Assembly: GCA_903915655.1 (NCBI GenBank)
Contig: CAIWTU010000100.1
Span: 1 to 64,000 of the forward strand
Direction: 5' to 3'
DNA: 64,000 nt
Source: an uncultured Geobacter sp.
GTDB lineage: Bacteria; Desulfobacterota; Desulfuromonadia; Geobacterales; Geobacteraceae
The position numbers were made by a program, and so were the translations under genes. The stretch's first letter is position 1. Each line of letters starts with the position of its first letter. The notes below the pieces were generated by a model, which was not told the DNA's origin, did not search any database, and saw only the letters and a program-made list of their open reading frames with translations. Positions 11,967-37,755 of this stretch are shown piece after piece.

Positions 11967-12002
11967 AATGAGTTGTGATTTTATTTTAGCAAGGAGGAAA
12001 GT

Positions 12003-13010
12003 ATGCACTTGGCAGATCAAATCAAGTCAAAAGCGAAGGGTAATCTACAGACTGTTGTCCTTCCGGAAAGTTACGATGAAAGGATGCTCTTTGCCGCAGA
12101 GAAAATCGTTGAGCAGGGTTTGGCAAAGGTTGTCATGCTTGGAAACCCTGAAAAGATCAAAGCCGCTGCCGCCGCTAAAAGTATTATTCTGGACGGTGTT
12201 GAGATCATCCAGCCGTCGATATCCCCAAAACTTGAAGCGTATGTAGAAAAACTCGTTGAACTCCGCAAAAGCAAAGCCCTTTCACGTGAAGACGCCCAGA
12301 AGCTTTTGACCGCATCCGATAACCTCTATTTCGCCGGCATGATGGTGCGAATGGGAGATGCAGGCGGGTGCGTAGCCGGGGCGACCAGCACAACCGGCGA
12401 TGTCCTGCGATCTGCTTTCCACACGGTCGGAACCTCCAGCGGCATAAAGACCGTATCGTCATTCTTCCTCATGGTCACTAATAATTCGGCTTTTGGAGAG
12501 AACGGCGTTCTTCTTTTTGCAGACTGTGCAGTCAACCCGAATCCTGACGCGCAGGCTCTCGCAGAAATAGCCGTTGCAACGGCTAGAAACTGCAAATCCT
12601 TCCTGGATGTAGATGGCCGGGTAGCGATGCTCTCATTCTCGACAAAGGGAAGCGCCTCCCATCCCGATGTCGACAAGGTAAGGAATGCTGTTCAAATTGC
12701 CAGGAACATCGAGCCATCGATATTCATAGACGGTGACCTGCAACTTGATGCAGCGATCCTACCAAGTATTGGTGAACGGAAAGCGCCTGGGAGTCCTGTT
12801 GCCGGCAAGGCTAACGTATTGATATTCCCCGACCTGGATGCTGGCAATATCGGCTACAAACTGGTTGAAAGGATTGCCGGCGCAGAAGCGATCGGACCGA
12901 TCCTCCAGGGATTGGCAAAACCGATAAACGACCTCTCTCGTGGTTGCTCAGTTGACGACATCGTCAATGTAGTTGCAATAACGGCCGTCCAGGCTATGGC
13001 CATGGGATAG
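12003..13010 (+). CDS. pta: Phosphate acetyltransferase
   Basis: Pta interconverts acetyl-CoA + Pi and acetyl-phosphate + CoA. With AckA it links acetate and acetyl-CoA. The 335-aa protein is the short PTA_PTB type without the N-terminal DRTGG domain: [44 protein letters not shown], then [26 protein letters not shown] and [10 protein letters not shown] near the C terminus. A strong AAGGAGG precedes the ATG. It faces ackA across a shared hairpin rather than forming an operon with it. Confidence 0.97.
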
Positions 13011-13041
13011 GACGAAGATAAACCGTATAGACAAACAGTCA

Positions 13042-13085
13042 GAAACAGGAAAGGCCGACGAATCTTCGCCGGCCTTTCCTGTTTC
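13042..13085 (+). terminator. Long hairpin between convergent pta and ackA
   Basis: GAAACAGGAAAGGCCG pairs with CGGCCTTTCCTGTTTC around a short inner loop (13042-13085). The stem is 16 bp or longer. There is no good U-tract on either side, so it may act as a bidirectional terminator or mRNA-end stabiliser. Confidence 0.6.
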
Positions 13086-13140
13086 ACTCGCTTGATACCG
13101 TCTAATCAATTCCCGCCCGGTAAGGGAGGGGAAGAACAAT

Positions 13141-14403
13141 CTAGAGGGTAAAATCCTTCTTTGAAAAAGAATATTCGAAATTCATATGATCGGTATAGGT
13201 ACCTTCCAGAATTGCAGCAACATCCTCGGTAAAAACAAGTTCCTCGTTTGTCGGGATAACAAAAACCTTGATCGGCGAATCATCGGTAGTAATAAGACTC
13301 TCCCGTTTTCTGGTCATGGCCGCCTTGTTTCTGGCCTTATCAAGCTTGATACCGAGGCATTCGAGTCCTTCAATCGCCTTTTCCCTGACCTGCCAACCCA
13401 TTTCACCGACACCGGCCGTGAAGACGACTGCATCAAGACGGCCAATGGCAGCCATATATGCACCGATGTATTTCTTTAACCGATATCCCTCTATCTCAAC
13501 CGCAAGCTTACAGAGTTTATCGCCCTTTTCCGCATGTTCAATAACGTCGCGCCGGTCGGTATATTTGCCGGTTATACCTAGAATACCACTCTTTTTGTTC
13601 AGAACATCGTCTATTTCTTTTGCTGAAAGACCCTCCAACTGCATCATGAACAAAGGAATCGCGGGATCTATATCACCGCAACGGGTGCCCATAACTGCGC
13701 CTTCCAGGGGAGTGAGCCCCATGCTGGTGTCGATGGAAACACCATGTTTGATGGCACAGTGGGAAACACCGTTTCCGATATGCATGGTTATCAGGTTACA
13801 GTCCTTGGGCGCCTTACCGAGGAGAACTGCCGCCCTTTTTGAGACGTAGAGGTGTGAGGTGCCGTGGAATCCGTAACGACGAACTCCGTACCGTTCATAC
13901 CAGTCATACGGGAGAGGATAAATAAAGGCGCAATCCGGCATGGTCTGGTGAAATGCGGTATCAAAAATCGCCACGTTGGGGACATCGGGGAGTACGGCAC
14001 GGACGGCTTCTATACCGGAAATGTTGGGAGGATTATGCAAAGGGGCAAGATGCTGAACGGCTTTGACTGCTTCGAGGACTTCATCGTCAATTAGAACAGA
14101 CTTGGTAAAACTCTCCCCTGCATGAACAACCCGGTGACCAACCGCGGAAATCTGGGACATCTCCTTGAGAACGCCATGCTTGGGATCGGTCAATGTTTTA
14201 ATGATGAGATCGACAGCGATCGTGTGATTCGGACACTCCGATTCTTTTCGGAATTTTTCACGCCCGGGAACTTCATGAATGATAAAAGACCCGCCCAGGA
14301 CGACCCTTTCGACCAAACCTTTGGCGATGATCTCTTTTTTTTCCCAGTCGAACAGCTGGTACTTTACAGATGAGCTTCCACAGTTAATTGCCAAAATATC
14401 CAT
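13141..14403 (-). CDS. ackA: Acetate kinase
   Basis: AckA makes ATP and acetate from acetyl-phosphate, or the reverse. The 420-aa protein starts MDILAINCGSSSVKYQLFDW, the ASKHA phosphate-1 motif, then VGHRVVHAGE, FDTAFHQTMP, YGFHGTSHLYV, HIGNGVSHCAI and the C-terminal VFTAGVGEMGW. I take ATG 14403, which follows GGGGAGGTAGG; the frame's 52 upstream codons have no family similarity. Confidence 0.97.
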   Translation of the reverse strand: MDILAINCGSSSVKYQLFDWEKKEIIAKGLVERVVLGGSFIIHEVPGREKFRKESECPNHTIAVDLIIKTLTDPKHGVLKEMSQISAVGHRVVHAGESFTKSVLIDDEVLEAVKAVQHLAPLHNPPNISGIEAVRAVLPDVPNVAIFDTAFHQTMPDCAFIYPLPYDWYERYGVRRYGFHGTSHLYVSKRAAVLLGKAPKDCNLITMHIGNGVSHCAIKHGVSIDTSMGLTPLEGAVMGTRCGDIDPAIPLFMMQLEGLSAKEIDDVLNKKSGILGITGKYTDRRDVIEHAEKGDKLCKLAVEIEGYRLKKYIGAYMAAIGRLDAVVFTAGVGEMGWQVREKAIEGLECLGIKLDKARNKAAMTRKRESLITTDDSPIKVFVIPTNEELVFTEDVAAILEGTYTDHMNFEYSFSKKDFTL

Positions 14404-26400: not shown

Positions 26401-27696
26401 ATGAAGAACAGACGCACCATCAGGAGGATTGTCCTGCCGCTGCTGATCTGCGCGGCCACCGGCCTGACAACCGCATGGGCCGGGGGGAAAATCACGCAGG
26501 ACACGGCAGTCTCGGAATTCTCCCACCGGCTCACCAACCTCCAGAACAAGTACGATGTCGTCAAATACCAGTGGTACGACATCTATGCCGATGGCCTCGT
26601 GCCCGGCGCTGATGAAGGGGGGAAACTGCTGATCGATGCCAAGGCCGCACTCTCTTCCGGCAACGCCCGGCAGGCAACAACACTGCTCGACTCGGCGGAA
26701 AAGTTACTTACGACCTATGAGAAGGGTAATCTCCCCCTCTATTCGCCACCGGAACCGATGAAAGATCCGGCCGATACGGGCAAGGTCCACTTGGGAACCC
26801 TCAGTGATCTGAAGATGACGGAATTTGCCGGGATCCCCCGGTGGAACTACTGGTTCAACTTCGTCGGGAGGGGGGACGATGGAGAGCAGTATATGATCTA
26901 TGCCTGCATAAATCAGCACGGTACCGGCAAGGTGGTCCTGCCGGTCCTGTTCGCCCTTTCTTCGACGAAGAACCCGAACGATGTCCGAAAGCTGAACTTC
27001 ACCACCATGCCGGTCTACACCGAAGGAAAGGATAGCATCACCTATACGGTCACGGAAGGGAACCGGTCGCTTAGCTACACCCTGGCGCAGGGCAGCGTGA
27101 AGATAACGTACCGTGACGTTGACATGACGGTGGTTGCCAGCGCGAAGTTCAACTACTCTTTCTGGTACAACAAGGGGCTCGGCGGCGCCGAGATGATGCC
27201 GAATGCCGTTATGGCCGGGTTCGAGGAGATGGGAGCAGCCTCCGCCACCTTCACCTTCAAGAAGAAAAAAGTAACCGTCAAGGGGTTTGCTGAGCAGGAA
27301 AACCTCTTCTGCGGCGGCCCCAAGAGTGCCGACTACCGGACCGCTCTCCTGAAGTTCGGCAACGAATGGTGGGTACCGTTCCATACCGACCAGGTGAGCG
27401 GCCTCTTCTGTATGACCGGCAGATACCGGGACGCCGGGCTCTACTACAAGGGTAAGTACTACACCCCCTCCGAATTCAAGGTGACGCCGCTGAAGGGGAA
27501 CACCTCCTTTATCATCGATGCAAAGTTCGGTGGCAACGACCTCCATCTGATCGTTGATCTCTGGGGATGGGACCCGAAGCTCTATGAGCACTGGGGGAAC
27601 GCCGCCGGCACGGTGAACGGGAAGAAACTGACCAACGGTTTCAGTTGGCTGGAGCATATCCCCCAGGGGGGCGTCAACAACAGCCCGCCGCAGTGA
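26401..27696 (+). CDS. Exported protein of unknown function, possibly calycin/CrtC-AttH-like
   Basis: A 431-aa protein with a Sec signal peptide (MKNRRTIRRIVLPLLICAATGLTTAWA), so periplasmic or secreted. Residues 30-115 look helical (HRLTNLQNKYDVVKYQWYDIYADGL). The rest is beta-rich with many Trp/Tyr and ends LIVDLWGWDPKLYEHWGNAAGTVNGKKLTNGFSWLEH. That is reminiscent of lipocalin-like CrtC/AttH hydratase-family proteins, but I would not assign a function. AAAGGAG precedes the ATG. It is the first complete gene downstream of riboswitch 1. Confidence 0.75.
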   Translation: MKNRRTIRRIVLPLLICAATGLTTAWAGGKITQDTAVSEFSHRLTNLQNKYDVVKYQWYDIYADGLVPGADEGGKLLIDAKAALSSGNARQATTLLDSAEKLLTTYEKGNLPLYSPPEPMKDPADTGKVHLGTLSDLKMTEFAGIPRWNYWFNFVGRGDDGEQYMIYACINQHGTGKVVLPVLFALSSTKNPNDVRKLNFTTMPVYTEGKDSITYTVTEGNRSLSYTLAQGSVKITYRDVDMTVVASAKFNYSFWYNKGLGGAEMMPNAVMAGFEEMGAASATFTFKKKKVTVKGFAEQENLFCGGPKSADYRTALLKFGNEWWVPFHTDQVSGLFCMTGRYRDAGLYYKGKYYTPSEFKVTPLKGNTSFIIDAKFGGNDLHLIVDLWGWDPKLYEHWGNAAGTVNGKKLTNGFSWLEHIPQGGVNNSPPQ

Positions 27697-27765: not shown

Positions 27766-28560
27766 ATGATAGTTGCAGGAATAGATCTGGGCTCAACAAC
27801 CGGCAAGGCGGTGGTGCTGGTTGATGACAAGATATTCCTCGGAGATATCATCATGTCCACGCCTAAACCTGCGCTTACCGCGCAGTTGGCTATGGATGCG
27901 GCGCTTAAAAATGCCGGGCTCTCATCGGTGAAAGATCTCAGCTATATCGTCAGCACCGGTTACGGCAGGCTTAAGGTTGATTTTGCCAACGAAAATATCT
28001 CGGAAATTTCCTGCCACGCCAAAGGCGCTTTTTACGCCATGCCTTCCGTAAGGACGGTAATAGACATAGGCGGACAGGATTGCAAGGCTATCTCCTTGAG
28101 TGATAAGGGGGCGGTGCTGGGCTTTGAGATGAATGATCGGTGCGCGGCCGGCACAGGCAGGTTCTTTCAGGTCATGGCCAAGGTTCTGGCCTGCGGACTC
28201 GACGGTATAGGTGATCCGGCCAACATAAGTAAAACTCCTGCAAGTATATCAAGTCAGTGCAGTGTGTTCGCCGAATCAGAAATCATTACGCTGGTTAACA
28301 ATGACATCTCTTTGCCCGACATCATAACCGGCATAAACAAAGCTGTAGCAAGCCGTGTCAGTTCGCTGGCCAGACGGGTAGGGGTGTCCGAAGATGTCGT
28401 CATCAGCGGGGGTTGCTACAATAATGAAGGGCTCAGAGCGGCGCTGGAAGACTCTTTGGGTATGAAAATAACGAAACTGCTTCTTAACCCGCAGTTCATG
28501 GGAGCTCTGGGCGCCGCTGTGCTCGCAAAGGGAAAAGCCGCCACTCTCACGAAATCATAA
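27766..28560 (+). CDS. 2-hydroxyacyl-CoA dehydratase activator-type ATPase (BadF/BcrA/HgdC family)
   Basis: A 264-aa ASKHA ATPase of the type that binds one [4Fe-4S] cluster between two subunits and injects an electron into a partner enzyme on ATP hydrolysis. It shows the phosphate loop AGIDLGSTTGKAVV, VIDIGGQDCKAI, and the cluster cysteines in NDRCAAGTGRFF (C126) and SSQCSVFAESEII (C165), plus SGGCYNN near the C terminus. Its length matches HgdC. An AAGGAGG precedes the ATG. It directly precedes one dehydratase-like pair and is the only activator in the cluster, so it may serve both pairs. Confidence 0.93.
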   Translation: MIVAGIDLGSTTGKAVVLVDDKIFLGDIIMSTPKPALTAQLAMDAALKNAGLSSVKDLSYIVSTGYGRLKVDFANENISEISCHAKGAFYAMPSVRTVIDIGGQDCKAISLSDKGAVLGFEMNDRCAAGTGRFFQVMAKVLACGLDGIGDPANISKTPASISSQCSVFAESEIITLVNNDISLPDIITGINKAVASRVSSLARRVGVSEDVVISGGCYNNEGLRAALEDSLGMKITKLLLNPQFMGALGAAVLAKGKAATLTKS

Positions 28561-28572
28561 ACGGAGTCTGAT

Positions 28573-29724
28573 ATGTCTGAAGAAAACAGATCACAAGTCT
28601 TGAAGAAGTTTAACGACTATGCGGGGAAAATCCTGAATCCTTCGGTAGAAAACGTTAAATCAGCAGACTGCAGGGTTGTCGGCTATTTCTGTTCGTTCAT
28701 ACCTGAAGAACTTTTCATTGCCGCAGGCCTCCTGCCCTTTAGAATGAGGGGGACGGGCAGCGAAACTACCGAGAGGGCCGACGAATACTTCACCTCCTGC
28801 AACTGCAGCTTTCCGCGCCACTGCTTCAATCAGGCTCTGACCGGGGAATTCACGTTCCTGGACGGGCTTGTTGTCGGGACCAGTTGTGATGCCACACGGT
28901 ACATCTATGACAACTGGAAAAGCAGCCCGATTAAGACGCCGTTCATCTATCTGCTGGGGTACCCTCATGTAAGCGGTGTTGCCATGGCGAATTATTACCG
29001 CGCTGAACTGGCCAAACTAAAAACAGCTCTTGAGGAACAGTTCGGCGCTCGCATAACGGATGAAAAATTGAGGAGCGCCATAACACTCTGCAATGAAACC
29101 AGGGAGCTTCAGCGACAGCTCTATGAAATGAGAAAATCCGCCAGCCCGCCGATAACCGGCTCCGAAATGGTTTCGGTCATGGTCGCGGGCGTTTCCATGC
29201 CTAAAGATGAATACAATGCGGATCTCAAGCAGTTGATTGAAGAGCTTGAAGCTCTGCCTGCCACTAACAGTACCTATGCGGCACGACTGATGGTTGTAGG
29301 CTCCTGCGGGGATGACGACATCCTGAGTCGTCTTGCGGAGGAACAGGGGGCGCTCGTCGTCACCGACCACACCTGTTTCGGCGGCAAGCTGAAATACGGC
29401 GCAGTGGACGGGGCCGCTTCTGATCCTCTTCAAGCGTTGGCAGAGTATCAGATTCTGACCCGGCCTTTCTGCGCCAAGGTCGGAGGGGCATATCAGTTAA
29501 GGGCCAAAGTAATACTGGATGCCGCGAAGGAATTCGGGGTGGACGGAGTTTTGGGACAGAGACTCGGCTGCTGCGACACATGGGGCGGCGAGCTTTATGC
29601 CCTCAAGGAGGACCTCAAGGGTGCGGGTATACCCAGCCTGATGATTGAGCGGGAATATGTCCCGGATTCCGAAGGCCAGCTTGCAACCCGCGTTCAGGCG
29701 TTCATCGAGACGGTAAGGAGGTAG
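28573..29724 (+). CDS. 2-hydroxyacyl-CoA dehydratase-like subunit, HgdB/BcrC type (pair 1)
   Basis: A 383-aa protein of the HgdB/BcrC/FldC and double-cubane-cluster superfamily, expected to hold an Fe-S cluster reduced by the activator. Visible are GYFCSFIPEELFIAAGLLPFRMRG near the N terminus, CNCSFPRHCFNQAL, the VVGTSCDATRYIYDNW loop, ITGSEMVSVMVAGVSMPKDEY mid-protein, and GVLGQRLGCCDTWGGE near residue 330, all typical cluster-binding regions. The substrate is unknown: no CoA-transferase or beta-oxidation gene is nearby. It lies 12 nt after the activator and 3 nt before its partner. Confidence 0.9.
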   Translation: MSEENRSQVLKKFNDYAGKILNPSVENVKSADCRVVGYFCSFIPEELFIAAGLLPFRMRGTGSETTERADEYFTSCNCSFPRHCFNQALTGEFTFLDGLVVGTSCDATRYIYDNWKSSPIKTPFIYLLGYPHVSGVAMANYYRAELAKLKTALEEQFGARITDEKLRSAITLCNETRELQRQLYEMRKSASPPITGSEMVSVMVAGVSMPKDEYNADLKQLIEELEALPATNSTYAARLMVVGSCGDDDILSRLAEEQGALVVTDHTCFGGKLKYGAVDGAASDPLQALAEYQILTRPFCAKVGGAYQLRAKVILDAAKEFGVDGVLGQRLGCCDTWGGELYALKEDLKGAGIPSLMIEREYVPDSEGQLATRVQAFIETVRR

Positions 29725-29727
29725 ACC

Positions 29728-30960
29728 ATGACTGACCAGGAAATAATCAATGCACTCACCGCGGAAGGCAACGAATACTTCAAGGCGCTGACCATAGCGG
29801 GCGTGAACGATAACGCCAGGATGGGCAGGCCTTTCATCATCGTGTCAGACGATGCGCTCCCCGAAATACCGGTTGCCATGGATATCTCATGCTCCATCAT
29901 GACTGTTGCCGGCGCCATGGGGACGGTGGGACCGGGCGCAGCCGAGAGGATAGACAAGGCGACCGAAATGGGGGTGGAGAACAGGCTCTGCGCCAGCGTG
30001 AAAATGGGGGCGTATTTTCTGAAGGCCGGAATCCTGCCGGTGCCGGACATGGTCATCACGACAAACTCGCCGTGCGACGCGGTCGATATGTTGGGCCAGA
30101 TGATGGACAATTACCCGCCATGGGCAAAAGTCCCGAAATTCAGGCTGGACGCACCGCACGGCCAGACCGATGAGGACTTTGTCTATTTTGGCGCGCAGTT
30201 GAAGGAGATGGTGCAGGCAATCGAGAAGGCGACCGGCAAAAAACTCACCATGGAAAGATTCGTCGAGGTGGCCGAGGAGTCGAACAGACAGGCATCCCTG
30301 ATAATGGATTTTCAGGAACTGACGCGGGCTGTTCCCTGCCCGGTGGACCCGGACATGGCCAGGGTGGGCTGGGAGCTCGCCAGATGGGTGGCAGCCACCG
30401 ATCCGTCGGTTTTTCCGAAAGCAACCGGCTGGCTTGAAAGGCTCGTCGACGTGACCGAACGCAAGGTGAAAGCAAAAACGGGGATGGACGGCGTACAGGA
30501 GAAGATACGTTTCCTCTGGTATGATGTTTCTCCGTCCTGGGGTTCGAAACTCTTTCCGCGGCTCAGGAGCGAACTGGGCGCGGTATGCATGAAGACCTAT
30601 TACTCGTTTCATAATTACATCCCCATCGACACGACGAGCATGGACAGCATGCTTGCGTCTGTCGCCAAGAAGTACCTCATGGGCACACCGATGACGCGGC
30701 AGGCCATGCACACCGCCGACGTCTTCTGCGACGATATCGTTCGCATCTGTAAAGAGGACAAGTGCGACGCGATGATCATGCCCTGCCATATCGGGCACAG
30801 GGACACCAACGCCTACCAGAAACTGGCTCGGGATACCTGTCGTGCGAACGGTATTCCCTTTTTCTTCCTTGGCTGTGATGTGTGGGACGAAAGATATATG
30901 CCGGCCGATGTCGTATTTGACAGGCTGAAAACATTTTTTCAATCGACAGGACTTGCCTGA
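29728..30960 (+). CDS. 2-hydroxyacyl-CoA dehydratase-like subunit, HgdA/BcrB type (pair 1)
   Basis: A 410-aa second subunit of the same superfamily. Cysteines in likely ligand positions are DISCSIM, VITTNSPCDAVD, FCDDIVRICKEDKCDAMIMPCHIGHRDTNAY and FLGCDVWDERY. The last segment matches the end of BcrB/HgdA-type proteins. It follows its partner by 3 nt with AAGGAGG in the overlap region, so a 1:1 complex is likely. It is clearly paralogous to the 34409-35620 gene. Confidence 0.88.
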   Translation: MTDQEIINALTAEGNEYFKALTIAGVNDNARMGRPFIIVSDDALPEIPVAMDISCSIMTVAGAMGTVGPGAAERIDKATEMGVENRLCASVKMGAYFLKAGILPVPDMVITTNSPCDAVDMLGQMMDNYPPWAKVPKFRLDAPHGQTDEDFVYFGAQLKEMVQAIEKATGKKLTMERFVEVAEESNRQASLIMDFQELTRAVPCPVDPDMARVGWELARWVAATDPSVFPKATGWLERLVDVTERKVKAKTGMDGVQEKIRFLWYDVSPSWGSKLFPRLRSELGAVCMKTYYSFHNYIPIDTTSMDSMLASVAKKYLMGTPMTRQAMHTADVFCDDIVRICKEDKCDAMIMPCHIGHRDTNAYQKLARDTCRANGIPFFFLGCDVWDERYMPADVVFDRLKTFFQSTGLA

Positions 30961-30974
30961 TCAAGGATTTCAAC

Positions 30975-31637
30975 ATGATTGAACTTCTCATGGCGACGCT
31001 GCCGCTGTCACTGGCTGCCGCTGTCAGCGTATCATCGATACTGGTGTTCTTTGCGATCCTGGTGGCAAAGGAAAAGCAGATTGAACATGGGTTTGCCTTT
31101 GTCCTGGGCGGCATCTCATGCTACGCCGCCATAGCGGCCGTGGTAATCTTTTCATGTTCCGCGGCAGCTCCTCCCGGATCGTCTCACCACCCGGGGCTGC
31201 ATGCCGGCGGAGACTTCATCCTCTCGGCGCTCTGCATTTTGCTGGCCATCAAGGAGATGCTCAAGAAAGCTGATGCGGGTAAGGAGAGGAACCGCGCTCT
31301 GCCTGGGGGCGCCGTAGCCTACTTCGGAATCGGCGCCCTGATGCGGGGCGCCAGCGCCAACACCCTCCCGCCGTTCATTGCCGCAGTGAAGGATGTTTCA
31401 GGAGCGCATCTCTCCTCCTCCTCATCGATGACGTTGTACCTGATGATTATTCTGGTCTCAATGGCCCCGATGATCATCCCCCTGCTGATCTTCATGTTCA
31501 ACAGGGAAAAGGCCGTGGCCCTCATCCTGCCCGTGAACAATTTCCTGGAGAAGAACAAGAAAAGAATCAGCATTACGGTGCTGGTAGTCATTGCGTTCTA
31601 TCTGGCGCTGCACGGGTTTCATCATCTGCGGGGATAA
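30975..31637 (+). CDS. Polytopic membrane protein, possibly GAP/LysE-like transporter
   Basis: A 220-aa inner-membrane protein with about six hydrophobic segments (LPLSLAAAVSVSSILVFFAILVA, FAFVLGGISCYAAIAAVVIF, FILSALCILLAI, a central GGAVAYFGIGALM segment, LYLMIILVSMAPMIIPLLIFMF, ISITVLVVIAFYLALHGF). A His/Pro-rich loop sits near residues 67-78. The layout resembles GAP/Sap (LysE superfamily) exporters, but the call is weak. It is embedded in the dehydratase cluster, 14 nt after pair 1. Confidence 0.65.
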   Translation: MIELLMATLPLSLAAAVSVSSILVFFAILVAKEKQIEHGFAFVLGGISCYAAIAAVVIFSCSAAAPPGSSHHPGLHAGGDFILSALCILLAIKEMLKKADAGKERNRALPGGAVAYFGIGALMRGASANTLPPFIAAVKDVSGAHLSSSSSMTLYLMIILVSMAPMIIPLLIFMFNREKAVALILPVNNFLEKNKKRISITVLVVIAFYLALHGFHHLRG

Positions 31638-31638
31638 C

Positions 31639-32391
31639 ATGGGGATGACGCTGCTTGACGATCAAATCTGCAAGGTACCTGAATATGTTGAGGAACTGCG
31701 ATCTCGGGGGAGAGCGGTGACCGTCTCCGATGCTCCTCCTATCTCCGTGGCGCTCCCGGTGGCTGTCGGGAAGGGCGCCCACTCTGGTCTCGTTCTGCGT
31801 GGTGACACCTGGCTGGAACTGGGAAACCCCGAGGCGGGGTCATGTTCATGCACGCTCTTCACCGCCACGCCGGGGCTCGTCCGGGATGGCCGGGTGACGG
31901 TAATCGGTCCGGATGTCAGTGATGCCTGCGGCAAAAGTCTCCCCTTCGGTCAGATACTGCTGATCGGAGGAGATGAGCTTCAGGAGGGAGATTGCGAGCT
32001 GCTCATGCATATGGGTGTCATCGGAGACAGCATCGAGGGGTACATGGTTCGGAGTTCGCGGCAGAGTGTCTGGAGCAGGATCAGCAGGGATGTCGCCCTG
32101 AAGGGATTCACTCTCAAGACCCTCGGGAGGGCACTCAGAACGCTGCACAAGGCCGGCAGTTGCAAAATACAGGCTATGGAAACCATCTTTGTGACTTCCA
32201 GCCGGGAAGATCTGGAGCGTCTTGCTGAAATAGCCCGGGAGGGGCAGATGATCACCCGCGAGATAGCCAGGGTGACGTGGAAAGCCCGGGGCGTTGATCT
32301 TGACTGCACCTTGGACTGTTCATCCTGTGCTGACAAAACGGTCTGTGACGACATCAAGGAACTGCTGGGAGAGAGGGTATCCGCATCATGA
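31639..32391 (+). CDS. Acetyl-CoA synthase (CdhC)-like protein lacking the A-cluster domain
   Basis: A 250-aa protein. By eye it follows the N-terminal/middle part of the CODH/ACS beta subunit CdhC: WLELGNPEAGSCSC (CdhC has ELGGPK), VTVIGPDVSD, FGQILLIGGDEL, EGYMVRSSRQSVWSRISRDVALKGF, LGRALRTLHKAG and METIFVTSSREDLERL. It then ends with C223-x3-C227-x2-C230-x5-C236, possibly an Fe-S or Ni site, where CdhC would enter its A-cluster domain. So it should not be a working acetyl-CoA synthase. The start at ATG 31639 follows GGGG and overlaps nothing; the longer frame from 31591 runs into the upstream gene. A CooC-like ATPase gene follows directly. Confidence 0.65.
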   Translation: MGMTLLDDQICKVPEYVEELRSRGRAVTVSDAPPISVALPVAVGKGAHSGLVLRGDTWLELGNPEAGSCSCTLFTATPGLVRDGRVTVIGPDVSDACGKSLPFGQILLIGGDELQEGDCELLMHMGVIGDSIEGYMVRSSRQSVWSRISRDVALKGFTLKTLGRALRTLHKAGSCKIQAMETIFVTSSREDLERLAEIAREGQMITREIARVTWKARGVDLDCTLDCSSCADKTVCDDIKELLGERVSAS

Positions 32392-32417
32392 GCTTTACTG
32401 GAGGAGGTGAGTCAGAA

Positions 32418-33185
32418 ATGATTGACAAACAGGTAAGACCCGGCAACAGCATACCGAAGCCGGTGCTGGCGGTATGCGGCAAAGGTGGTGTGGGGAAGAC
32501 GGCCTTCTCGGCGCTGCTGGCCCGGGTTCTGATTGCGGAACGGCTGAAGCCGCTTCTGCTCGTTGATGCCGATCCGGTGGGAGGACTGACCTCGGCTATC
32601 GGTGAGACGGCCGTATCCACTCTTGCTGCGGTGCGCGACCGACTGGTCGGGCAGGCCATCTCGGGAGACAAGGGGGCTCTAGCCGATGCTGCCAGCCAAC
32701 TGGACTATTATGTCATGAACGCGCTGGTGGAACACCCGGATTTCAGTCTGCTGGCCATGGGGCACAATCGGGAAAAGGGGTGCTTCTGCCCGGCAAATCA
32801 ACTGCTCAAGAATGCCGTCGACACTCTGATCTCGTCGTTTGCCGGCGTGCTCATCGACGCCGAAGCCGGGATCGAGCAGATTAATCGTGATGTTACGGGC
32901 CGAGTCACCGGCATCATCGTCGTTGTGGACGGCTCGCAACGAAGCATGAATACCCTGGAGATGATTGTCCGGATGCGGGGCTCTTCCAACGTCAGGGTGG
33001 TTGCCAACCGGGTTCCGAAAAACTTCGCATTTAACCTCCCTCAATCGGTGGTCCACCTTGGCTCTATCCCGGAAAACGAGGAACTTCAGCAGTTCGACCG
33101 CGACGGTCGCTCCCTCTGGCAGTTGCCGGCAGATAATGAAGCTCTCACCGCAGTGCGGGAGATTGCGTGGCGTCTTACCTGGTGA
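32418..33185 (+). CDS. CooC/AcsF-like P-loop ATPase (Ni-enzyme maturation type)
   Basis: A 255-aa MinD/ParA-fold ATPase. It has the deviant Walker A CGKGGVGKT (20-28), LLVDADPVGGLTSAIGE, a CxC in NREKGCFCPANQLL (the Zn/Ni-binding dimer motif of CooC), VLIDAEAGIEQINRDV, and VANRVPKNF. CooC proteins insert nickel into CODH, and AcsF serves acetyl-CoA synthase. No full CODH or ACS is in the window, so the client may be the CdhC-like neighbour or the dehydratase subunits. I choose ATG 32418, which has GGAGGAGGTGAG upstream. An ATG at 32388 overlapping the previous stop as ATGA would add ten residues. Confidence 0.85.
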   Translation: MIDKQVRPGNSIPKPVLAVCGKGGVGKTAFSALLARVLIAERLKPLLLVDADPVGGLTSAIGETAVSTLAAVRDRLVGQAISGDKGALADAASQLDYYVMNALVEHPDFSLLAMGHNREKGCFCPANQLLKNAVDTLISSFAGVLIDAEAGIEQINRDVTGRVTGIIVVVDGSQRSMNTLEMIVRMRGSSNVRVVANRVPKNFAFNLPQSVVHLGSIPENEELQQFDRDGRSLWQLPADNEALTAVREIAWRLTW

Positions 33186-33248: not shown

Positions 33249-34412
33249 ATGAAATCAGGCATTAAATCAGATAGTTTTGAAAAGTTTACCGTGATTGCAG
33301 GCAGCATCATGAACCCGTCAGTTCAGGAATGTAAAGATGGTGGCCGAAAAGTCCTGGGCTATACCTGCTCATTCGTGCCTGAAGAGCTGATCATTGCTGC
33401 GGGCATGCTCCCTTTTCGTATCAGGGCGACAGACAGCGAGAGCGCTGGACGAGCAGACGACTATTTTGAGTCGGCCAACATCTGCAGCCTGATACGCCAC
33501 ACCTTCGGAAAGGTGTTGAACAGCGAATATGATTTCATCGACGGCGCCATAGTCGGCGGTGGCTGCGACGGTAACCGGCATATCCTTGATAACTGGGAAA
33601 AAAGCCCGGCAAAAATTGCTTTCCTTGATCGCCTGTTTATTCCGCATGCCTCCAATAACCTCACTGCGGAATTTTTTCTGGGTCAGCTTTCAGGATTGAA
33701 GAGCAGAATTGAAGGGTATTTCGGCGTAACAATCACGGATGAAAAATTATGGAGCGCAATCAGACTCTGCAACGAGGTCAGGGAGCTTCAACGGGAACTC
33801 TATGGCCTAAGGCTGTCGGATAATCCGCCCATCACCGGCTCGGAAACCGTGGCTGTCATTGTCGCCGGATCATCAATGCCGAAAGAGGAGTACCGGGACG
33901 ATCTGAAAAAGCTGTTACGTGAACTTCAGGAAGTACAAGTCCCTGAAAAGAAATACTCCGCTCGGATAATGATTGTCGGTCCCGGCCATGACGACACCTC
34001 GATGAGCGATATCGTCGAAGAGCTGGGCGGCCTGGTGGTCAATGACCTGACCTGTTTCGGCGGCAAGGTAATCTTCGGCAGTGTCAAAGAGGATGGGTCT
34101 GACCCGCTCAAAGCCCTGGCCGATTACCAGGTGCTGACAAGGCCGTTCTGCCCGAAGAACCTCAGTGCGCATCCTGTTATCAACAAGGAAGTGTTTGACA
34201 AGAGCAAAGAATTCAAGGTCGATGGCGTAATCGGCCAGGTATTCCTCTGCTGTGAAACCTGGGGGGGTGAAATTTTTATCCTTAACAAAGAACTCAGAGA
34301 TGCCGGCATACCCTTGCTGAGAATCGAGAGGGAATGCACCGCAGATTCGACAGGCCAATTGAGGACGCGTGTCCAGGCCTTCATTGAGACGATATCAGGA
34401 GGTGCACTATGA
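33249..34412 (+). CDS. 2-hydroxyacyl-CoA dehydratase-like subunit, HgdB/BcrC type (pair 2)
   Basis: A 387-aa paralogue of the 28573-29724 protein, similar along the whole length: GYTCSFVPEELIIAAGMLPFRIRA, VGGGCDGNRHILDNW, ITGSETVAVIVAGSSMPKEEY, DLTCFGGKVIFG, GVIGQVFLCCETWGGE. It differs where pair 1 has CNCSFPRHC: here it is ANICSLIRH, so one cysteine of that patch is lost and another remains. TAGGAG lies upstream of the ATG. The stop overlaps its partner by 4 bp. Confidence 0.9.
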   Translation: MKSGIKSDSFEKFTVIAGSIMNPSVQECKDGGRKVLGYTCSFVPEELIIAAGMLPFRIRATDSESAGRADDYFESANICSLIRHTFGKVLNSEYDFIDGAIVGGGCDGNRHILDNWEKSPAKIAFLDRLFIPHASNNLTAEFFLGQLSGLKSRIEGYFGVTITDEKLWSAIRLCNEVRELQRELYGLRLSDNPPITGSETVAVIVAGSSMPKEEYRDDLKKLLRELQEVQVPEKKYSARIMIVGPGHDDTSMSDIVEELGGLVVNDLTCFGGKVIFGSVKEDGSDPLKALADYQVLTRPFCPKNLSAHPVINKEVFDKSKEFKVDGVIGQVFLCCETWGGEIFILNKELRDAGIPLLRIERECTADSTGQLRTRVQAFIETISGGAL

Positions 34413-35620
34413 TAAACGTATTTTCTCAATTACAGATGCAAGCTGGCAAGTCACTCGGCGGTCTTTGCCTTGACCCGCAGAATGCATCTCCTGGACCGTT
34501 CGTGCTGGGCAACGGTGACTTTTTCATCGAAATACCGGCTGCTTACGGTTGCTCATATTCAGACCTGACGATTACCGGCGCCATGGGGACAGCAATGCCG
34601 GATGCATCTGAACTTATAGATAAAGCGATAGAAACCGGAGTGGAAAGCCGGATGTGCACTGCCCTTAAAGTCGCCTGCTATTATCTTGAAGCAGGCCTCG
34701 TCAGGAAACCTGACATGATAATAACTTCCAACTCTTGCTGCGACTCCATGGACACGCTTGGAAACCTGATGAATACCTACAAACCATGGGCGGAGGTCCC
34801 CAAGTTCATAATGGACGCACCGCACAGCTTTGATGAGGAAAGCTATATATACATGGGTAAACAACTGCGCCAGGCTGTGACCTTCATGGAAGATGTCTTT
34901 GGCAGGAAGATGGACTGGGACCGCCTCAGGGAAGTTTGCGTGCTGTCTAACAAACAGGACCAGTTGCTGCTCGAATTTCAGGAATTAAAAAAAGCCGTGC
35001 CTTGCCCGGCAAATCCTGATTTCTCAAGGCTTGGCTTCGCCTATGACAGGTGGACCGGTGAAAGAATCTCTCCGCAGATAACCGACTGGCTCGAACAGTT
35101 GATAAGCGCCACTGAACAGAGGGTAAAAGACAAGCTGGGGATTGAAGGAATAACTGAAAAGGTGAGGTTCCTCTGGCAGGAACTGGCCGGGACCTGGCCC
35201 CCGGTCGAGCTCTGGGGGCGTCTGCAGCAGGAACTTGGTGCGATTGTGATCATGGATTATATGTCATTCGGGACATTGACGCCCATCGATCTGACGAGTG
35301 AAGAGGCCATGTTCACCTCATTCGGCAAGCGATTTTTGCTGGAAGACCCGATGAACAGGCAGTGCCTGCACACGACCGACTTTTTCTGCAATGACATCCT
35401 GCAGATAGTCAAGGATTTCAAGTGCGACGCGGTGATCATACCCGCGCATATCGGAAACCGCGACACAAACTCACGGCTGAAGGTCGTCAGGGAGATGTGC
35501 CGCGAAAAGGGCATCCCGTGCCTGGTCCTCGGCATGGACATCTGGGACAAACGGTACATGACGCCGGAAACGGCCTTCGACCGGATAAAAACATTCTTCG
35601 AAACGACAGGACTTATTTGA
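34409..35620 (+). CDS. 2-hydroxyacyl-CoA dehydratase-like subunit, HgdA/BcrB type (pair 2)
   Basis: A 403-aa paralogue of the 29728-30960 protein (TGAMGTAMPDASELIDKAIETGVESRMC, IITSNSCCDSMDTLGNLMN, CNDILQIVKDFKCDAVIIPAHIGNRDTN). Compared with pair 1, MPCHIGH has become IPAHIGN, and NSPCD has become NSCCD, so the cysteine pattern differs and so may the metallocluster. ATGA overlap with the preceding gene and AGGAGG just upstream imply coupled translation. Confidence 0.88.
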   Translation: MINVFSQLQMQAGKSLGGLCLDPQNASPGPFVLGNGDFFIEIPAAYGCSYSDLTITGAMGTAMPDASELIDKAIETGVESRMCTALKVACYYLEAGLVRKPDMIITSNSCCDSMDTLGNLMNTYKPWAEVPKFIMDAPHSFDEESYIYMGKQLRQAVTFMEDVFGRKMDWDRLREVCVLSNKQDQLLLEFQELKKAVPCPANPDFSRLGFAYDRWTGERISPQITDWLEQLISATEQRVKDKLGIEGITEKVRFLWQELAGTWPPVELWGRLQQELGAIVIMDYMSFGTLTPIDLTSEEAMFTSFGKRFLLEDPMNRQCLHTTDFFCNDILQIVKDFKCDAVIIPAHIGNRDTNSRLKVVREMCREKGIPCLVLGMDIWDKRYMTPETAFDRIKTFFETTGLI

Positions 35621-35634
35621 TCAAAGGAGGTTTT

Positions 35635-37413
35635 ATGAAACAGAGAATTATTATCGCGTTATGTCTGCTGATCGTTACCCTGTTAACCGTCCAGGCGTTA
35701 TATGCCGCCAGGAAACCGGTTGCCGTAAAACATGCGGCTGCAGCCATAATCGACCCGAATGCATACCCTGCCGTAACTGCGGAAGAATGGGGACAGTTGC
35801 GCTGGATGCTGAAACTTGCCGATCAGGACATTCCCAATTTCACTAATTTCCAATCCGTGGATGAACAGGGAGTAAGCGCAAGCCGTTATTCCATTGCATT
35901 TGGCGCCTATTTCCTTGCTGCCGAGCAGTACCACAAATTCCCGGCATGGCAGGAGACAATCAAGACTGCGTTTGACCGCATAAACCAGAAGATGCTCGAT
36001 AAACAGGTATGGGGATACTGGGCGAATGAAAGCCTCGGTATTACAAAGTTCGAGCCCAATATGGACCGGCCTTACGCTGAAAACAAAGACCCTGTGTCCC
36101 TAGGAAATATCATGTATTCAGGCCATCTGGGACAGATGATCAATCTCTATCAGATGCTCTATAACGAAAGGAAATGGGATGCGCCGGGCTCGATAGTTTT
36201 CAAGTGGGACGACAAAACGGAGTTCGTCTATGACAACAGGAAACTCCAGGAAGTCATGTTCCTTCAGATGATGACAAATCCTGTCCCCGGGATAGAGTGT
36301 GAACGCAACGCCATCTTCCCGGTCTGCAACCTTCATCCGATGCTCAGCTGGAAGTTGTATGACCAGATGCACGGCACGCGTTATTTTGATGCAGCCCATC
36401 CGCTCTTTGACGAATTCTTCGAGAAAACCTTTGTCAATCGCAAGACGAACAGCTACGGCATTATTTATCTCATCAAGCAGGGCCTGTTATTTTCATCGTG
36501 GAGTCCCCAGTATGGCAACAAAATGGACGGTCTGATAAAGGGAATGGTCGCCAAGGGTGCTAATTTCAACTCCGCGAGTATTGATGGCTGGACCGGAACA
36601 TTCATGCACGCATGGAACCCGAAACTGGTAGAAAGCCTTTACCCCTATAGAAAAAAATTTCAGGTAATATACAATCCTGACGGCACGGTCAATCTCAGGA
36701 AAGATAATTTTGCACCTGACGCCTATTGGGGCTTTTTCACCATGGGAGTGGCCGAGATGGGCGACACTAAACTGTTGAAGGCGCTGCACAAGGCGGCTGA
36801 CAAAGAGCTGTCTCCGGTCTGGATAGACGGCACCTACCATTATCAGTTCGCAGACAAGACTCCGACAGTAAACTTGGCGGCGGCGGATTCGGACAAGTCT
36901 GCAACTCCGGCACACGCTGCGCCGATGGCAAAGTCCCCTGCTGCACCGCCGGCGCCGGCAGATGACGCTAAAGGCGGAATCTGCTGCAACGGTTTGCGGA
37001 CCAAAGAACATGGAAATATCGGCAATATGAAGACTTGGCCTCAGCATGCTGACCTCGTTGACAGGCAGATGGCAATTTCGAGGGCGCTGCCCAAGAGCGG
37101 CATGTGGACCATGCACAACAAGCCGTTCGATGCGGCACATTTTACCGAGCCTGCAATTACAGGGATTGATGTAAAAAAGACTGCGCTCAAGCGGGCGATA
37201 TATGACAGGTCAAAGAAGGCGCTCATCGTTTCTACAATGCTCGGCAAACCGGGCGCTGGAGATGTCAGTTTCAATATTGTAAATCTCGACTTGTCAAAGA
37301 CTTACAAGCTTATCATCGACGGCAAAAAGACTGCTCATATCAGCTCGGTGAAAGAATATGTTGTTACTCTTGACGGTGCGAAAGCCCATGACCTGATTCT
37401 TATACAGATATAG
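35635..37413 (+). CDS. Exported linalool dehydratase-isomerase-like protein
   Basis: A 592-aa protein with a signal peptide (MKQRIIIALCLLIVTLLTVQALYA). The start at ATG 35635 follows AAAGGAGG, 14 nt after the previous stop. Residues about 45-450 resemble linalool dehydratase-isomerase (Ldi), a periplasmic enzyme that hydrates myrcene and isomerises geraniol/linalool without cofactor. Matches are SVDEQGVSASRYSIAFGAYFLA (D76), YSGHLGQMINLYQMLY (H164) and GIECERNAIFPVCN, whose cysteines C222 and C231 have the nine-residue spacing of Ldi C171/C180. A Pro/Ala-rich linker (about 425-450) and a C-terminal beta domain follow. The substrate is unknown. Confidence 0.7.
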   Translation: MKQRIIIALCLLIVTLLTVQALYAARKPVAVKHAAAAIIDPNAYPAVTAEEWGQLRWMLKLADQDIPNFTNFQSVDEQGVSASRYSIAFGAYFLAAEQYHKFPAWQETIKTAFDRINQKMLDKQVWGYWANESLGITKFEPNMDRPYAENKDPVSLGNIMYSGHLGQMINLYQMLYNERKWDAPGSIVFKWDDKTEFVYDNRKLQEVMFLQMMTNPVPGIECERNAIFPVCNLHPMLSWKLYDQMHGTRYFDAAHPLFDEFFEKTFVNRKTNSYGIIYLIKQGLLFSSWSPQYGNKMDGLIKGMVAKGANFNSASIDGWTGTFMHAWNPKLVESLYPYRKKFQVIYNPDGTVNLRKDNFAPDAYWGFFTMGVAEMGDTKLLKALHKAADKELSPVWIDGTYHYQFADKTPTVNLAAADSDKSATPAHAAPMAKSPAAPPAPADDAKGGICCNGLRTKEHGNIGNMKTWPQHADLVDRQMAISRALPKSGMWTMHNKPFDAAHFTEPAITGIDVKKTALKRAIYDRSKKALIVSTMLGKPGAGDVSFNIVNLDLSKTYKLIIDGKKTAHISSVKEYVVTLDGAKAHDLILIQI

Positions 37414-37439
37414 GAAGGGTTGCAACTTTTCTCTCGCTC

Positions 37440-37755
37440 CAAACAGGAGCCCCCTGTGCAGATGCTCCGTATTATACCCATCAACCCAAGTCTGGGCCGC
37501 TGCCAGACTTGAAAAAGTCCGGCTCGGATAACCGGCTCTATATTTCATTGTTCGAAACAGCGCTTCAGAGTAGAGGTTGTCGTCACTAACCTGTGGTCTG
37601 CCGAAGGAAGGAACTACTCCCAGGCGGAGGGTAGCCCGCATGGTCGCCCCTTTCATCGGGCCGCCGTTGTCGGAATGAAGAACCAGACCTTCCGGATTGA
37701 TGCCCCCCCTGTGCATCTTCATAAACGGGTAAAGAATAAAATATGACTGGTTCAA
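37440..37755 (-). pseudogene. IS3-family transposase fragment (OrfB integrase core)
   Basis: VLHSDNGGPMKGATMRATLRLGVVPSFGRP, then ALFRTMKYR and YNTEHLHRGL are the end of an IS3 OrfB DDE integrase core. The N-terminal half is missing, part of it appears in another frame (37586-37792), and the frame runs past the domain into the 3' end of the preceding gene. No second ORF or terminal repeats are evident. The 37756-37986 stretch has no gene I can support. Confidence 0.75.

Follow-up and report, generated by a model that had tools for sequence, protein, structure and literature searches.

The middle domain of acetyl-CoA synthase (ACS, or CdhC) is reported to make contact with CoA in the enzyme of C. 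autoethanogenum, according to a citation in the excerpted text of PMC12289521, where an AlphaFold3 model also docks it to CoFeSP. CooC is the ATPase of nickel insertion into CO dehydrogenase (CODH; structure 3KJE); in CooC1, Cys112 and Cys114 form a CxC motif whose dimer-interface site binds Zn, in competition with Ni (PMC6006190, excerpt). A third group of described systems consists of the HGD-D (PF06050) enzymes, i.e., the class I benzoyl-CoA reductase BzdNOPQ, 2-hydroxyisocaproyl-CoA dehydratase, and DCCP. BzdN holds an [8Fe-9S] double cubane through Cys36, Cys73, Cys100, Cys263, Cys293, and Cys327, and the [4Fe-4S] cluster of BzdO is held by Cys95, Cys128, and Cys380 (PMC11971306, excerpt). 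The putative isoprene reductase of Acetobacterium wieringae can be likened to these by its description, as an anaerobic reductase whose paper, in excerpt, contains nickel and CooC terms (PMC10134865).

The window, i.e., the whole stretch of 64,000 nucleotides analysed here (contig CAIWTU010000100.1 of the uncultured Geobacter sp. assembly GCA_903915655.1), carries a run of ten genes, all on the + strand between 26401 and 37413 and separated by short gaps or overlaps in its list of open reading frames. The run opens with a 431-aa protein (26401–27696, +) with a signal peptide apparent by eye, for which we found no Pfam or NCBIfam family over the cut-off and no PDB match of note; this exported-looking protein is kept in the same operon in a second locus, L003. 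Next come a BcrAD/BadFG-type activase, an ATP-dependent electron activator (27766–28560, +; TIGR00241, E 8.5e-71, over cut-off), and a first HGD-D pair, in which subunit a (HGDa; 28573–29724, +) has six Cys at the BzdN double-cubane ligand positions and subunit b (HGDb; 29728–30960, +) has two Cys and a His at the cluster ligand positions of BzdO. An SfLAP-family membrane protein (30975–31637, +) lies within the operon here and in L003, and is unmatched in the other loci (phmmer, 1e-5). The gene at the centre of this work (31639–32391, +) encodes a stand-alone ACS middle-domain protein of 250 aa with a C227-x2-C230-x5-C236 motif near its C-terminus. It overlaps by four bases (ATGA) the frame of a CooC-like deviant Walker A ATPase (32388–33185, +; match to CooC1 3kje, E 1.6e-14), which contains a CxC motif (GCFC) and has an alternative ATG at 32418. 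A second HGD-D pair follows, with the six double-cubane Cys in subunit a (33249–34412, +; BzdN, E 1.2e-40) and two Cys and an Asn at the BzdO ligand positions in subunit b (34409–35620, +). All the HGD-D neighbours (PF06050 domains) and the activase (PF01869) score above cut-off. The last gene of the run (35629–37413, +) encodes a linalool dehydratase/isomerase (Ldi)-domain protein; its start was set by analogy with L003, the frame being open from 35422. Both this protein and its L003 counterpart (11996–13774) lie beside anaerobic reductase genes, and the protein, 594 aa in length, has a long additional C-terminal part. An rve_3 integrase-core fragment (37297–37755, −) that closely follows the operon is a possible trace of mobility.

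The preliminary description of this DNA had recognised CdhC in the 31639–32391 frame, by the blocks VTVIGPD, IGG, VWSRISRD, and FVTSS followed by C-terminal cysteines. All of them are indeed present, and the similarity is borne out by profile comparison, since hhalign against 20 ACS gives a probability of 99.5% (E 3e-23). PF03598 matches residues 40–186 of the 250-aa protein (E 1.4e-14; 54.7 bits vs. a cut-off of 24). Solved ACS chains match from the middle domain to the first A-cluster Cys (E 8e-15 to 2e-9), and a profile of 38 members finds ACS in the PDB at 1.7e-23, with its CxxC falling on the CxxC of ACS. The homology spans about 195 residues, over which E60, G62, G90, D92, G134, M136, W145, R147, G156, and G163 are largely in common with ACS/CdhC. 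Matches to PRK04456 and TIGR00316 (E 2e-19 and 1e-16) are confined to the first 200 or so of about 460 model positions, and the scores with these full-length CdhC models (69 and 61 bits) stay below their cut-offs (372 and 356, respectively). Contrary to ACS, the stand-alone protein has neither the N-terminal nor the C-terminal domain. The same description had it stop before the A-cluster domain, and a stop before the remainder of that domain turns out to be general: the window protein ends 14 residues after the third A-cluster Cys position, and all 45 stand-alone members end 14–38 residues past C236. Chance similarity, a frame error, or a local truncation are ruled out by the fact that 45 members end alike. 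AlphaFold, run on four sequences, gave no usable model (mean pLDDT 41.5).

The C-terminal cysteines, which had been taken for a cluster of four, keep this status in part only. C227, C230, and C236 are found in 45/45 members, on a par with E60, L61, G62, P64, G90, G134, M136, and R147 (W145, 44/45), whereas a counterpart of C223, scored as a Cys within eight residues upstream of the motif, exists in 21 of the 45. Nor do these cysteines stand in place of the A-cluster domain, as had been proposed, for they align with the first cubane ligands of the A-cluster motif. In the merged MAFFT alignment, C227, C230, and C236 are matched with three Cys shared by 20/20 ACS; in Moorella ACS numbering, these would be Cys506, 509, and 518. 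The hhalign placement is slightly different locally (C223, C227, and C236 on three ACS Cys). Thus, by alignment, the location of the motif on the A-cluster is certain, and its placement within the motif is uncertain by one Cys because hhalign and the MAFFT/profile alignments differ. While six Cys are conserved in the A-cluster segment of 20/20 ACS, the stand-alone protein is devoid of the fourth cubane Cys and of both Ni-site Cys, and no Cys occurs beyond C236 in 44/45 members.

The 45 distinct members, the window protein included, come from at least three phyla. Named relatives come from three MAGs, one of Geobacter (91%), one of Ignavibacteriae (50%), and one (34%) labelled Deltaproteobacteria and placed under Myxococcota in the tree listing. 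Their distribution is patchy, which suggests horizontal transfer. Indeed, the protein occurs in 2/97 relative genomes (window genome counted), in one of the 198 genomes of the Ignavibacteriae MAG's phylum (that MAG itself), and in 5/52 genomes of the third relative's phylum (that MAG counted). In the phylum of the window, 30 of 395 genomes have short-frame matches set apart from ACS (frames of 219–350 aa plus one of 571; E 1.4e-27 or better), the ACS matches of the same search having E-values of 1.7e-21 or worse and, among the matches listed, frames of at least 405 aa in nearly all cases; this split was made by eye from frame length and E-value. Six genomes (G103, G140, G388, G328, G306, and G204) show CdhC-type matches in frames of 405–415 aa with in-frame stops (TAA, TGA) that the search read through, for which a pseudogene, recoding, or an assembly error are possible. 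No stand-alone protein was found in viral contigs, and the plasmid collection returned a single match, a true full-length ACS of Acetoanaerobium. In a tree of 61 rows, the stand-alone proteins and 20 ACS are parted by a 100/100 branch. As regards the sampling, L054 duplicates the L003 contig and was left out of the trees, of the HGD ligand and Cys counts, and of the final locus counts; it is still present in the CxC count and in earlier neighbourhood surveys (29 CxC rows for 28 distinct loci; 42 rows for 41). L126, a repeat of L005, was left out of the 47-row CooC tree and of the final locus counts. Alignment A2 comprises 38 of 42 rows (without L046, L053, L054, and L073), and A3, A4, and A5 comprise 16 of 54, 15 of 41, and 18 rows, respectively.

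Contrary to ACS/CdhC genes, the stand-alone gene is not linked to CODH. CODH is absent from 19 of 37 host genomes (19/33 in a first set; present in 4/4 further ones), the ACS C-terminal domain is absent from 20 of 33, and the window genome has neither. The protein is thus not a CODH/ACS subunit, a status ruled out by the CODH-free hosts, the HGD-D neighbourhood, and the 100/100 branch. Another proposal would make it a decayed or truncated ACS subunit, working with CODH/ACS or left over from it. This accounts for the sequence homology to ACS and is in our view very improbable, as the protein sits on its own side of that branch, its motif is conserved and its length similar in 45/45 members, and the 19/33 hosts without CODH and the 20/33 without the ACS C-terminal domain include the window genome.

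Coupling to a CooC-like ATPase, already remarked in the window, extends to the family. CooC adjoins the stand-alone gene on the same strand in each of the 31 loci that have CooC (31/44 overall). Like the ATPase of nickel insertion into CODH, the locus CooC keeps the deviant Walker A motif and the CxC: the metal motif is present in 29/29 rows and the exact string GKGGVGKT in 26/29, one of the three misses (L065) being read from an internal start. It differs from the CODH-linked CooC in that it forms a separate clade and is found where CODH is absent; trees part it from the sampled CODH/ACS-linked CooC with supports of 100/97 (36 rows) and 99/100 (47 rows). Of 37 host genomes, 35 have a CooC of the locus clade, which adjoins the stand-alone gene in 30 and lies elsewhere in the genome in five (G097, G107, G136, G171, and G179); genome searches did not find it in G144 (82% complete) and G728. 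It is adjacent in 19/19 CODH-free vs. 11/18 CODH-bearing hosts (p 0.003, the genomes being related). We dropped the idea that the locus CooC is missing only where a CODH-type CooC could stand in, as five of the seven exceptions carry a same-clade CooC elsewhere and the genomes are related; for the same 5/7, a CooC of their own acting in trans explains the exceptions better. CooC matches of at least 271 bits occur in 28 of 30 genomes with the stand-alone protein vs. 0 of 365 without it, a comparison whose p is not a fair test because the cut was set post hoc and the profile was built from these very loci.

Gene order shows that the main neighbours of the stand-alone gene are ATP-dependent reductases of the benzoyl-CoA reductase (BCR)/2-hydroxyacyl-CoA dehydratase family and their activases. 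Among the 44 loci fetched besides the window, HGD-D is found in 38, an activase in 35, and CooC in 31, vs. 0/20 for HGD-D and 0/20 for activase in CODH/ACS control stretches from host genomes. The six loci missing HGD-D consist of L046, L059, and L069, which are short contigs or contig edges, and L048–L050, which are one lineage. In these latter three (genomes G144, G179, and G107), HGD-D is absent from the fetched stretch and acyl-CoA dehydrogenase genes lie nearby. The frequent order, HGDa-HGDb-activase-activase-protein-CooC, resembles bzdNOPQ, and several loci add two acyl-CoA dehydrogenases, a flavodoxin or ferredoxin, and a second HGD-D pair. In several loci, genes for acyl-CoA dehydrogenase, thiolase, and AMP ligase point to the catabolism of a CoA ester. 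One guess, for the window/L003 lineage only and drawn from the Ldi-domain gene, is a terpenoid substrate. Two neighbour families have no Pfam match: c4 (about 430 aa, 14 loci; e.g., L063 16383–17681, −) and c7 (about 205 aa, 10 loci, often paired; e.g., L068 3302–3919).

These systems resemble BzdNOPQ, 2-hydroxyisocaproyl-CoA dehydratase, and DCCP by the six double-cubane Cys of HGDa, the three-ligand cluster site of HGDb, the presence of one or two activases, and, in many loci, a similar order. They differ from them by the ACS-like and CooC genes alongside and, in the window clade, by a His or Asn as third HGDb ligand. All six BzdN positions are Cys in 41/41 HGDa. In HGDb, the Cys95 and Cys128 positions of BzdO are Cys in 54/54, and the Cys380 position is Cys in 46/54, His in seven, and Asn in one. 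In the window itself, the third ligand is the His of the first copy and the Asn of the second; His or Asn at this position is also seen in L003, L004, L055, and L056. Judged by these residues, the substitution suggests an unusual active-site cluster. Equivalog models for Bzd, Bcr, Had, and double-cubane proteins score far under their cut-offs (for bzdN, 162 vs. 453.8 bits), and the substrate is therefore probably other than benzoyl-CoA.

What role, then, could the stand-alone protein play? The reading we favour, to which we give somewhat less than an even chance, makes it a dedicated accessory protein, or a third component, in an ATP-driven system for acyl-CoA reduction of the BCR-I/HAD family, combining the CoA-binding middle domain of ACS with a three-Cys remnant of the A-cluster cubane, served with metal by CooC, and bringing the CoA ester to its own site or to HGDb. 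From known family behaviour, the activase(s) would hydrolyse ATP and pass electrons to the double cubane of HGDa and then to the catalytic HGDb. The adjacent CooC, via the CxC site at its dimer interface, would load the three-Cys site, or an Fe-S cluster on it, with a metal, for which nickel is our first guess. The middle domain would hold CoA or a CoA thioester and carry it to the metal site or to HGDb. We infer CoA binding by the middle domain from its homology to ACS; the presence of a metal on the three-Cys site, its identity, and the reaction are likewise presumed. In favour of this third-component reading stand the three invariant Cys (45/45) and their alignment with ACS cluster ligands, the HGD-D genes in 38/44 loci vs. 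0/20 control stretches, the adjacent CooC with its CxC, the 19/37 hosts without CODH, the CoA contact reported for the ACS middle domain, and the double-cubane Cys kept in 41/41 HGDa. Several observations count against it: the three invariant Cys could equally hold zinc or be structural, 7 of 37 hosts have no CooC beside the stand-alone gene, and HGD genes are missing from the stretches fetched for the single lineage L048–L050. A bolder version, which we regard as doubtful, would have CooC load nickel or another hetero-metal on a three-Cys Fe-S site of this ACS-derived CoA-binding protein, which would then be a catalytic subunit operating with the ATP-driven double-cubane reductase, and would provide anaerobes with a novel route for reducing or rearranging a recalcitrant CoA ester.

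On the other hand, the direct adjacency of a known metal-insertion ATPase in the 31/31 loci having CooC also fits a maturation factor, which would stay outside the working enzyme and, together with CooC, assemble or insert a metal cluster (e.g., the double cubane or the catalytic cluster) into HGDab. A three-Cys site would suit a transfer scaffold, and the His or Asn ligand of the window-clade HGDb (8/54 rows) makes an unusual cluster possible. However, a maturase needs no retained CoA-binding domain, the ligand sets of HGDa and HGDb are ordinary in most lineages, and BzdNO with its double cubane was made in E. coli from a bzdNO plasmid (PMC11971306, excerpt), so that we consider this explanation possible but rather unlikely. 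The same motif, CxxCx5C without a fourth conserved Cys, would also fit a structural or zinc-holding site in a carrier or docking protein for CoA thioesters, CooC then serving another protein of the operon; the middle domain of ACS is indeed a CoA- and partner-docking domain (PMC12289521, excerpt). This carrier proposal is, to our mind, distinctly unlikely, as the alignment puts the three Cys on ligands of a metal cluster and CooC pairs with the stand-alone gene, its immediate neighbour in 31/31, rather than with HGD.

In conclusion, the comparisons made here support the view of a conserved, free-standing protein that derives from an ACS domain, carries a conserved Cys motif, and is coupled to a CooC-like ATPase. 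Of the two outcomes named in the preliminary description as refuting it, namely a profile search without similarity to CdhC and a lack of Cys conservation, neither was obtained. We found no description of a stand-alone ACS middle-domain protein in the open-licence literature, in the excerpts of it that include PMC13056359, and this is apparently a previously undescribed protein of anaerobic bacteria, built from known parts. PF03598 alone would file the corresponding genes as CODH/ACS subunits, in genomes without CODH. If the favoured role is true, evolution has dismantled ACS and put its CoA-binding domain, together with a metal chaperone, to new use in another low-potential metalloenzyme system. 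Either the short list of nickel proteins would be widened, or the ATP-driven aryl/acyl-CoA reductases would gain an unknown partner.
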